Origin: Krasilnikoviella flava
Lineage (GTDB): Bacteria; Actinomycetota; Actinomycetes; Actinomycetales; Cellulomonadaceae
Assembly: GCF_900167525.1 (NCBI RefSeq)
Contig: NZ_FUZQ01000007.1
Coordinates: 310,001-374,000 of the forward strand
Length of the DNA stretch: 64,000 nt
Direction of reading: 5' to 3'
Position numbers and translations under genes: made by a program. The notes below the pieces were generated by a model. That model ran no database searches, was not told the DNA's origin, and saw only the letters and a list, made by a program, of their open reading frames with translations. Within the stretch, counting starts at the first letter, position 1, and every line of letters begins with the position of its first letter. This document shows positions 36,056 to 38,536 of the stretch, in pieces.

Positions 36056-38536
36056 TCAGCGCACGCCGAGCACGAACGGGTGCACGCCCGATGCGCCGGC
36101 CTGGCGCAGCAGCCGGGCCGCCACAGTGAGCGTCCAGCCGGACTCCGTCCAGTCGTCCACCAGCAGCACGGTGCGCCCCGGCAGGCCCCGCAGGGCGGCG
36201 TCGCTCAGCTCCAACCGCAGGCGCTTGGCCACCCCCGCGAGTCGCATCGCCGAGTTCACGTCGTGCCGGTCGGGCTGCTCGGCGCCGTCGGCCGGGCCGA
36301 CGGCCCCGATGAGCGGGACGCCGAGGTACGCGGCCAGCCCGGTCGCGAGGTGGTACGTGAGCTGCGGCCGGGTGGCCGACCGCACCGCGACCACGCCCTC
36401 GATCGCGTGCGGCCGCGTGGGGTCGCCGGAGCTCTCGCCGTCTGCGCCGTCTGCGCCGTCTGCGCCGTCCGCGCTGCCAGGGTGGATCGCGTCCCAGTCG
36501 TCGAGGACGCGTGCCGCGGCGTGCCGCAGGGGCACGGGCACCTCGCCGTCGGGGGCGCCTGCGGCGAACAGGTCGCGCAGAGGCCCGGACCAGCCCAGGC
36601 CGTCGAGGCGCGCCACCGCACGGCCCGGCTCTGCCCGCTCGTCGGGCGCGATCTTGCCCTTGAGGTCGAGGCCGAGCGCGGCGAGGCCGGACGGCCACAT
36701 CGCGCGGGGGCCGACCTCCACGCCCGGCCGGTCCATGTCGGCGCGTGCGGCGGCGACGGCCTCGGCGTCCGGGACCGCCGGCAGCGTGACCCCGCCACAG
36801 CGGTCGCAGCGCCCGCAGGTCCAGCCGTCCGGCAGCTCCGGGTCGTCGAGCTGGGCGCGCAGGTACGCCATCCGGCACCCGGAGGTCGCCACGTAGTCGA
36901 CCATCGCCTGCTGCTCCGCCTCGCGGGTGGCCTCCACGCGGGCGTACCGGTCGGCGTCGTAGGCCCACGGGAGGCCGGTGGCGACCCAGCCGCCCTGCAC
37001 GCGCCGCACCGCGCCGTCGACGTCGAGCACCTTGAGCATCGTCTCCAGGCGGGAGCGCTTGAGGTCCACCTGGGTCTCGAGGGCCGCCGTGGACCGTGTG
37101 CCCTCGGCGCCGGACAGCGCGGCGAGGGTGGCGCGCACCTGCGGCTCGGCGGGGAACGCCTGGGACCCGAACCAGTCCCAGATGGCGCGGTCCTCGTGCC
37201 CCGGCAGCAGCACGACGACGGCGTCGTCCACGCCACGACCCGCGCGGCCCACCTGTTGGTAGTACGCGATGGGTGACGACGGCGCCCCGAGGTGCACGAC
37301 GAACGCGAGGTCGGGCTTGTCGAAGCCCATGCCGAGGGCCGACGTCGCCACGAGCGCCTTGACCCGGTTGGACTTGAGGTCCTCCTCGAGCTGCTCCCGC
37401 TGGGTGGGGTCGGTGCGCCCGGTGTACGCGGCGACCGCGAGCCCGGCCCCGCGCAGCTGCTCCGCGACCTGCTCGGCGGCGGACACGGTGAGGCAGTACA
37501 CGATCCCGGAGCCCTCGACGTCCTGCAGCGCCTCGACGAGCCACGCGACCCGGGTCGGCTGGTCGGGCAGCTCGAGCACGGCCAGGTGCAGCGACTCCCG
37601 GTCCAGTCCGCCGCGCAGCACCAGCACCTCGTCGGACGGCGCCTCGCCGGCGCCGTCGTCGGGAGCCGCGCCGTGCACCGCCAGTTGCTCGGCGACGTCG
37701 GCGGTGACGCGCGCGTTGGCGGTGGCCGTCGTGGCGAGCACGGGGATGCCCGGCGGCAGGTCGGCGAGCAGGGTGCGGATGCGGCGGTAGTCCGGGCGGA
37801 AGTCGTGGCCCCAGTCGGAGATGCAGTGCGCCTCGTCGATCACGACGAGGCCGGCGTCCGCCGCGAGCCGGGGGAGCACCTCGTCGCGGAACGCCGGGTT
37901 GTTGAGCCGCTCGGGGGAGCACAGCAGGACGTCCACCTCGCCGGCCGCGATCTCCGCGTGGATCTGGTCCCACTCGGTGACGTTCGAGGAGTTGATCGTC
38001 ACGGCGCGGATCCCGGCACGGGCCGCGGCCGCGATCTGGTCGCGCATGAGCGCCAGGAGCGGGGACACGATGACGGTCGGCCCCGCGCCGCGGGAGCGCA
38101 GCAGCGACGTGGCGACGAAGTAGACGGCGGACTTGCCCCACCCGGTGCGCTGCACGACCAGCGCGCGACGACGGAAGGCGACCAGGGCCTCGATGGCGCG
38201 CCACTGGTCGTCGCGCAGCGTGGCGTCCTCGCGGCCGACGAGCGCGCGCAGAGACTCCTCCGCCTGCTCGCGCAGCGTGCCGCCGCCCTCGCCTGCGCTG
38301 TCGAGCAGGCCTCGGAGCATCGCGAGCTTCGCGCGCTTGGCGGCGTCGGTCGACGGAGCAGCCGGGGCCGCCGAGGGGGCTTCGGTTGCCGGTTCCGCGC
38401 CGCTGGGAGGCGCGTCCGCCGGCGCCGGGGCGGCGGGGCCGGGTTCGGGCTCGGGCGCCAGGTCGTCCGGCGGCGGGACGTCCTCGTCCGTCGGGTCGAA
38501 CACGAGGTCGGCGTACGGGTCGTCGGGGTGGCTCAC
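36056..38536 (-). CDS. RecQ-type DNA helicase with C-terminal phosphoribosyltransferase-like domain
   Basis: 826 aa from GTG 38536, apparently leaderless. Residues 1-65 are acidic and Pro/Ala-rich. The RecQ core has Walker A TGWGKS (131-136), DEAH (234-237) followed by CISDWGHDFRPDYRRI, and helicase C with GMGFDKPDLAFVVH and YYQQVGRAGR. A Cys cluster (CRMAYLRAQLDD then CGRCDRCGG) is the RecQ zinc site. The last about 100 residues carry TVLLVDDWTESGWT, a PRPP-loop of ComF-like phosphoribosyltransferases. No HRDC domain is visible. Function of the C-terminal domain is unknown. Confidence 0.87.
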   Translation of the reverse strand: MSHPDDPYADLVFDPTDEDVPPPDDLAPEPEPGPAAPAPADAPPSGAEPATEAPSAAPAAPSTDAAKRAKLAMLRGLLDSAGEGGGTLREQAEESLRALVGREDATLRDDQWRAIEALVAFRRRALVVQRTGWGKSAVYFVATSLLRSRGAGPTVIVSPLLALMRDQIAAAARAGIRAVTINSSNVTEWDQIHAEIAAGEVDVLLCSPERLNNPAFRDEVLPRLAADAGLVVIDEAHCISDWGHDFRPDYRRIRTLLADLPPGIPVLATTATANARVTADVAEQLAVHGAAPDDGAGEAPSDEVLVLRGGLDRESLHLAVLELPDQPTRVAWLVEALQDVEGSGIVYCLTVSAAEQVAEQLRGAGLAVAAYTGRTDPTQREQLEEDLKSNRVKALVATSALGMGFDKPDLAFVVHLGAPSSPIAYYQQVGRAGRGVDDAVVVLLPGHEDRAIWDWFGSQAFPAEPQVRATLAALSGAEGTRSTAALETQVDLKRSRLETMLKVLDVDGAVRRVQGGWVATGLPWAYDADRYARVEATREAEQQAMVDYVATSGCRMAYLRAQLDDPELPDGWTCGRCDRCGGVTLPAVPDAEAVAAARADMDRPGVEVGPRAMWPSGLAALGLDLKGKIAPDERAEPGRAVARLDGLGWSGPLRDLFAAGAPDGEVPVPLRHAAARVLDDWDAIHPGSADGADGADGADGESSGDPTRPHAIEGVVAVRSATRPQLTYHLATGLAAYLGVPLIGAVGPADGAEQPDRHDVNSAMRLAGVAKRLRLELSDAALRGLPGRTVLLVDDWTESGWTLTVAARLLRQAGASGVHPFVLGVR
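36437..36472. repeat. 9-bp tandem repeat inside recQ
   Basis: Four head-to-tail copies of GCCGTCTGC (last copy GCCGTCCGC), coding (minus strand) for ADG repeats in a linker before the C-terminal domain. In frame, so copy number changes would only alter linker length. Confidence 0.85.

Follow-up and report, generated by a model that had tools for sequence, protein, structure and literature searches.

The fusion of a RecQ-like helicase to a C-terminal phosphoribosyltransferase (PRT) domain was named RqlH in 2012 for MSMEG_5935 of Mycobacterium smegmatis (Ordonez, Unciuleac and Shuman, NAR 40:4604, doi 10.1093/nar/gks046). As far as this work is summarised in PMC4670107, the protein is a DNA-dependent ATPase and 3'-5' helicase, and its PRT domain is dispensable for both activities. 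The genetics of RqlH were dissected in extraintestinal E. coli F11 in 2015, where the PRT domain proved genotoxic unless the DprA-like protein RqlI was present, and where mutants of the PRPP pocket largely lost this toxicity (PMC4670107). RqlH occurred alone in 99.6% of the counted Gram-positive bacteria and in all examined Streptomyces, and according to Russell and Mulvey solo and partnered copies show no major sequence difference (PMC4670107). For the PRT-domain protein ComFC of Helicobacter pylori, binding of PRPP was observed in the crystal, and the exchange T165A abolishes nucleotide binding; its binding of ssDNA is independent of the nucleotide site, and Helicobacter ComFC itself has not been shown to be an enzyme (PMC9005727).

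Within the window, i.e. the whole stretch of 64,000 nucleotides of Krasilnikoviella flava DNA that was analysed, the reading frame reported at 36056-38536 in a preliminary description is real at these coordinates and lies on the minus strand, which had not been stated there. The gene, rqlH (psyrT-like), extends from a GTG start at 38536 to a stop at 36056 and encodes 826 aa; a second in-frame GTG is located upstream of this start at 38584. For the comparison of residues, 80 orthologous loci in Actinomycetes, e.g. Streptomyces, Demequina, Promicromonospora, Cellulomonas, Actinomyces and Nocardioides, were used, resulting in an alignment of 81 rows in which the other proteins are 56-82% identical to the query.

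All features of the protein are given with their positions on the minus strand. Residues 1-86 (38279-38536) form a variable acidic and proline-rich N-terminal tail, which is not conserved in the orthologue alignment. Pfam assigns residues 109-278 (37703-38212) to the first RecA-like domain (PF00270 DEAD, 1.6e-22) and residues 332-434 (37235-37543) to the second (PF00271 Helicase_C, 5.4e-19). The Walker A motif TGWGK at residues 131-135 (38132-38146) is kept in all covering rows except one, and in the DEAH box at residues 234-237 (37826-37837) the E, A and H are invariant. The RecQ-type zinc site comprises Cys554, Cys574, Cys577 and Cys580 (36797-36877), each present in 81/81 rows, and is matched weakly by RecQ_Zn_bind. 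Residues 586-826 (36059-36781) constitute the C-terminal ComF/ShosT-like PRT domain, for which Pfam reports PF00156 Pribosyltran.

The assignment as a RecQ-type helicase, made in the preliminary description, agrees with both motor domains, the zinc site and the NCBIfam RecQ subfamily model, which RqlH passed with 225.6 bits at a cut-off of 219.8. Canonical RecQ identity was rejected, since TIGR01389 yielded 247.6 bits compared to an equivalog cut-off of 640.2 and the HRDC domain is absent: no Pfam match to HRDC was obtained in RqlH at E values up to 1. The HRDC model does match two other places in the same genome. The proposal that a PRT domain occupies the place of HRDC is supported by this absence together with the PF00156 match and the predicted PRT fold; the profile search suggested for the C-terminus gave 27.6 bits for the last 147 residues alone, above the curated cut-off of 26.3.

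The family identity of the gene can be stated with hardly any reservation: it belongs to the RqlH (= PsyrT) family, as a solo copy on the chromosome. The PADLOC PsyrT model PDLC03928 matched the protein with an E value of 6e-200; the best stretch comprised residues 89-649, and the C-terminus fits less well than that of the E. coli RqlH-type relative (locus L101), which scored 1018.9 bits. The DEAH ATPase core motifs, the four-cysteine zinc site and the C-terminal ComF/PRT-like domain characteristic of the family are all present. Full-length relatives from Nostoc, Halanaeroarchaeum, E. coli and Sinorhizobium showed 38-39% identity with about 90% of the query aligned, and a strong RqlH-type domain was counted in the match table for about 57 of 296 Actinomycetota genomes. 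The fusion is thus settled as RqlH, known since 2012; its architecture, the resemblance to ComF and the solo occurrence are already published, and the K. flava gene is an ordinary orthologue.

Of the full-length AlphaFold2 model (pLDDT 85), the first ~500 residues matched helicases of the RecQ family (RecQ structures with Z of about 28-35 over residues 1-497). Since this structure search was filled by helicases and silent on the PRT part, the C-terminal 241 residues were folded alone by AlphaFold2 with 39 relatives and searched separately. The resulting model of residues 586-826 reached a pLDDT of 92.7, and its Foldseek matches were phosphoribosyltransferases. After re-alignment, the best solved match was H. 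pylori ComF (7p0h, Z 11.8, 5.7 A, 170 residues), followed by ShosT with phosphate (8zvd, Z 11.1) and with PRPP-Mg (8zvc, Z 10.8), with purine salvage PRTs at Z 10 and below; matches within one Z unit are regarded as tied. Searched against the PDB, the sequence profile of the domain matched PRPP synthetases and PurF; of the Actinomycetota genomes screened with it, about half yielded free-standing ComF-sized proteins, mostly with E values of 1e-7 to 1e-13. A PRT fold of the C-terminal domain, for which the preliminary description had proposed a structure prediction, is therefore considered practically certain. The likeness to ComF noted there was likewise recovered, both in the best structural match and in weak matches of TIGR00201 comF to 21/26 RqlH family members. 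Identity as a ComF protein was rejected for the K. flava sequence itself, which scored 19.2 bits at a cut-off of 233.55. Judged by sequence, the C-terminus is a ComF-like domain and not a ComF protein.

A link to DNA uptake had also been proposed from this likeness. That the PRT domain serves competence, like ComFC, would be in line with ComF being the best structural match, with the pairing of a helicase and a PRT protein in Bacillus comF, and with the DprA-like protein that accompanies partnered RqlH. However, the genome contains one canonical DprA and separate ComF-sized PRT genes, so that RqlH is additional to them, no competence genes were seen adjoining rqlH, and E. coli RqlHI strains showed no detectable transformation (PMC4670107). 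The link was consequently dropped, and a role in competence is regarded as highly improbable. The sensing of nucleotide supply and the handling of bases, which the preliminary description had also suggested, likewise gained no support from the results, and these give no indication of catalysis by the domain.

Three stretches of the PRT domain carry the residues expected to contact a ligand. The putative pyrophosphate loop S720-x-x-R723-P724 (36365-36379) comes after the first strand of the core in the predicted structure, with S and P in 81/81 rows and R in 78/81. It is succeeded by the putative flexible-loop motif N761-S-A-x-R765 (36242-36256), with S762 and R765 in 81/81, and by the PRPP loop LVDDWTESGWTL at residues 792-803 (36128-36163), which is identified by the Pfam match, the alignment and the positional match to H. 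pylori ComFC and overlaps the segment TVLLVDDWTESGWT (residues 789-802). LVDD of this loop is kept in 81/81 rows, one of them with D-E: D794 is found in 81/81, and D795 is D in 80/81 and E in one. G800 and W801 are as invariant as S720, P724, S762 and R765, and at T802 each of the 81 rows has T or S. The conservation of LVDD together with the invariant loop glycine and tryptophan indicates that the motif is not a chance occurrence. The loop tryptophan is also present in the cyanobacterial, archaeal and E. coli relatives; the most distant relative compared (L187) reads GAT, without it. The preliminary description had tied its claim to the retention of the PRPP-loop acids among orthologues, which holds for all 81 close ones, but many distant solo lineages have lost one acid.

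Compared to the E. coli system, the second half of the module is missing. A PsyrA/RqlI partner was found neither near rqlH in the K. flava locus nor in the 80 orthologous actinomycete loci, and across the K. flava genome the PsyrA model detected only the canonical DprA with 94 bits, on the same contig about 150 kb away from rqlH, and a 22-bit fragment. True partners score 452-577 bits, as determined for three DprA-like proteins. Loci L099, L101, L103 and L108 served as positive controls for partner detection, and four partner DprA-like proteins resemble one another at 33-46% identity. A DprA-like gene adjoins RqlH in Nostoc and also in Sinorhizobium, there as an unannotated ORF. The E. coli pair lies inside a type I restriction locus, the pair of an Acinetobacter plasmid (L103:1-9434), with a PsyrA-type DprA, forms an insertion in a BREX locus, flanked by pglX and a DUF262 gene, and on a viral contig (L108) both genes occur with restriction genes in an apparent defence cluster. 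Inspected by eye, this contig (L108:1941-11270) comprises a pair made up of a nucleotidyltransferase and a patatin-like gene, a candidate regulator (301 aa), RqlH, the DprA of the PsyrA type and a methylase of type I restriction. Plasmid and phage collections added few further partnered copies. One actinobacterial genome (G045) carries RqlH-PsyrA twice (L163, L164), with about 21 kb between the two pairs, and a haloarchaeal plasmid (L100:3995-6076) holds a full-length RqlH whose annotation includes no DprA partner.

The homology to PsyrT, the intact PRPP site and the location of partnered relatives in type I restriction, BREX and the apparent defence cluster would fit a reading in which RqlH acts as the toxin in a toxin-antitoxin or anti-phage system of the PsyrTA/RqlHI type and is held in check by an antitoxin that escaped recognition. 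By analogy to the genotoxicity of the E. coli PRT domain (PMC4670107), a toxin-like role of the K. flava protein is possible. Nonetheless, PsyrA was not found nearby or in the genome, where the canonical DprA stands apart, and the gene occupies a stable chromosomal position, with his genes (hisD/hisC/hisB) in its vicinity in 27/80 loci and another set, a DUF4192 protein and RNase HII, in the 45/80 loci of the Streptomyces type. A conserved neighbour as alternative restraining partner was sought and rejected, since none is common to the Micrococcales/Actinomycetales loci with his genes and to Streptomyces, unlike what would be expected for a fixed antitoxin. Russell and Mulvey moreover argued from the many solo copies against a universal toxin-antitoxin role (PMC4670107). 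Altogether, restraint by a hidden antitoxin appears unlikely.

In the window, rqlH (36056-38536) lies between hisD (31258-32583) and hisC (40960-42174) with other genes intervening. Histidine synthesis also consumes PRPP; the proximity probably reflects inherited gene order. Between rqlH and hisD, an SNF2-family helicase is encoded at 32267-36016 on the plus strand, a SCO1167/SCO6262-type relative below cut-off with, by eye, an apparent N-terminal SWIM-type zinc finger. Its end is 40 bp from the rqlH stop, and due to this convergent orientation it was rejected as an operon partner.

A comparison of the acid pair was carried out on 40 loci from the 296-genome search together with plasmid and viral relatives. 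Partnered RqlH with a readable loop kept both acids in 13/13 cases, while 40 rows without a detected partner showed both acids in 25 and an altered pair in 15 cases (L157, L159, L161, L162, L169, L174-L176, L181-L184, L186, L106 and L171), partner absence being judged only from the few kilobases around the gene, with some contigs ending early. Mostly, the second acid is replaced by A, T, V or L, and the altered loops read LVDA, LVDV, LVDT and VVDE. A tree restricted to the helicase part shows at least four changes of the pair, all of them in partnerless rows. The association gave a raw Fisher p of 0.011 with relatedness ignored; it comprises only 2-5 independent pairs and is not significant after correction. 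The flexible loop also differs, reading mostly N-S-x-x-Q-x-x-N in partnered and N-S-A-x-R-L in near solo copies. The relation between acid pair and partner state is thus new, modest and preliminary, and at most suggestive; together with the flexible loop it offers candidate differences between solo and partnered copies, compared to the 'no major difference' of Russell and Mulvey. Two RqlH-type helicases on Rhodococcus plasmids (L098:3599-5455 and L107:2482-4509) share about 61-64% identity with the query; both stop shortly behind the zinc cysteines and lack a PRT domain.

As many solo relatives have lost the second acid, a PRT domain evidently can persist without an intact site. A domain that in solo lineages has degenerated to a remnant with a purely structural or DNA-binding role, without a small-molecule ligand, would account for the altered pairs in 15/40 partnerless rows and their at least four origins, for the truncated Rhodococcus copies, and for the nucleotide-independent ssDNA binding of ComFC (PMC9005727). 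Yet the loop residues are invariant over the 81 proteins of the K. flava clade in spite of 56-82% identity to the query, a constancy that would hardly be expected if no ligand were bound, and we therefore give the remnant explanation a rather low probability. For this clade, being solo with an intact site, the sequences suggest a partner-independent use of ligand binding. A more far-reaching and doubtful extension would distinguish two regimes of RqlH, in which partnered copies are restrained toxins that need the intact acid pair, while partnerless actinobacterial copies either have altered it, on at least four occasions, or retain the site, like those of the K. flava clade, in a partner-independent, ligand-gated repair helicase. 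If true, this would bear on the reason why so many Gram-positive bacteria tolerate a solo RqlH.

The reading preferred here, which we hold with reasonable but limited confidence, is that solo RqlH is a 3'-5' DNA-damage-response helicase whose C-terminal domain binds PRPP or a nucleotide. Following the biochemistry of the M. smegmatis protein, the RecQ-like motor, formed by the ATPase domains and the four-cysteine zinc site, would move 3'-5' on ssDNA and unwind duplexes. As ligand of the PRT domain, PRPP-Mg or a nucleotide monophosphate is most likely, which the invariant residues of the pyrophosphate, flexible and PRPP loops would contact; once bound, the ligand might either regulate the helicase on DNA or be turned over there. 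Ligand binding as such is likely, whereas the exact ligand and its coupling to the work on DNA can be proposed only tentatively; the literature covered reports no ligand for any RqlH. The K. flava lineage would manage without a DprA-like restraining partner, and a DNA-damage response appears the most plausible role compared to a toxin-antitoxin or defence module; for a partner-free housekeeping function in DNA repair, we see the chances as even. The lower listing of the MSMEG_5935 protein (-1.9) in an M. smegmatis deletion of pafBC (PMC5656591), the DNA-damage regulator, counts for the repair role. A search upstream of K. flava rqlH revealed neither a PafBC nor an SOS box, and one exact match to a PafBC-type box in 80 orthologues gives no support for damage regulation. 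Since no match of the canonical RecQ model over its cut-off was obtained in the complete K. flava genome, RqlH may cover RecQ-type work. A second RecQ-like helicase of this genome (G000:C7:143377-144393, L191; open frame of 957 aa) is 31% identical in the motor region.

Among the known systems, RqlH of M. smegmatis, with a length of about 690 aa, differs from the K. flava protein in the N-terminal tail, which is longer in K. flava (826 aa in total), and in the gene neighbourhood. Both share a RecQ-like ATPase, the zinc domain, the C-terminal PRT domain and, as far as the M. smegmatis protein is summarised in PMC4670107, the absence of both HRDC and RqlI. RqlH-RqlI of E. coli F11 has a common architecture and the same PRPP loop pattern, but the E. 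coli copy is partnered and genotoxic without RqlI, while the K. flava copy is partnerless; the flexible-loop motif of L101, the E. coli relative, is NRFHQCRNLDGAF, compared to NSAMRLAGVAKRL in K. flava. The protein is likewise homologous to the toxin half of PsyrTA, whereas the antitoxin half PsyrA is missing in K. flava. The PRPP-binding toxin ShosT, the second-best structural match to the C-terminal domain, is paired with ShosA and, to our knowledge, not fused to an RqlH-type helicase. ComFC of H. pylori, the best structural match to this domain, also carries a zinc site preceding the PRT domain, but is a stand-alone protein. By position, its PRPP loop DDIITTGTTL corresponds to DDWTESGWTL in K. 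flava RqlH, with a tryptophan in place of T164 and T802 as the equivalent of T165.
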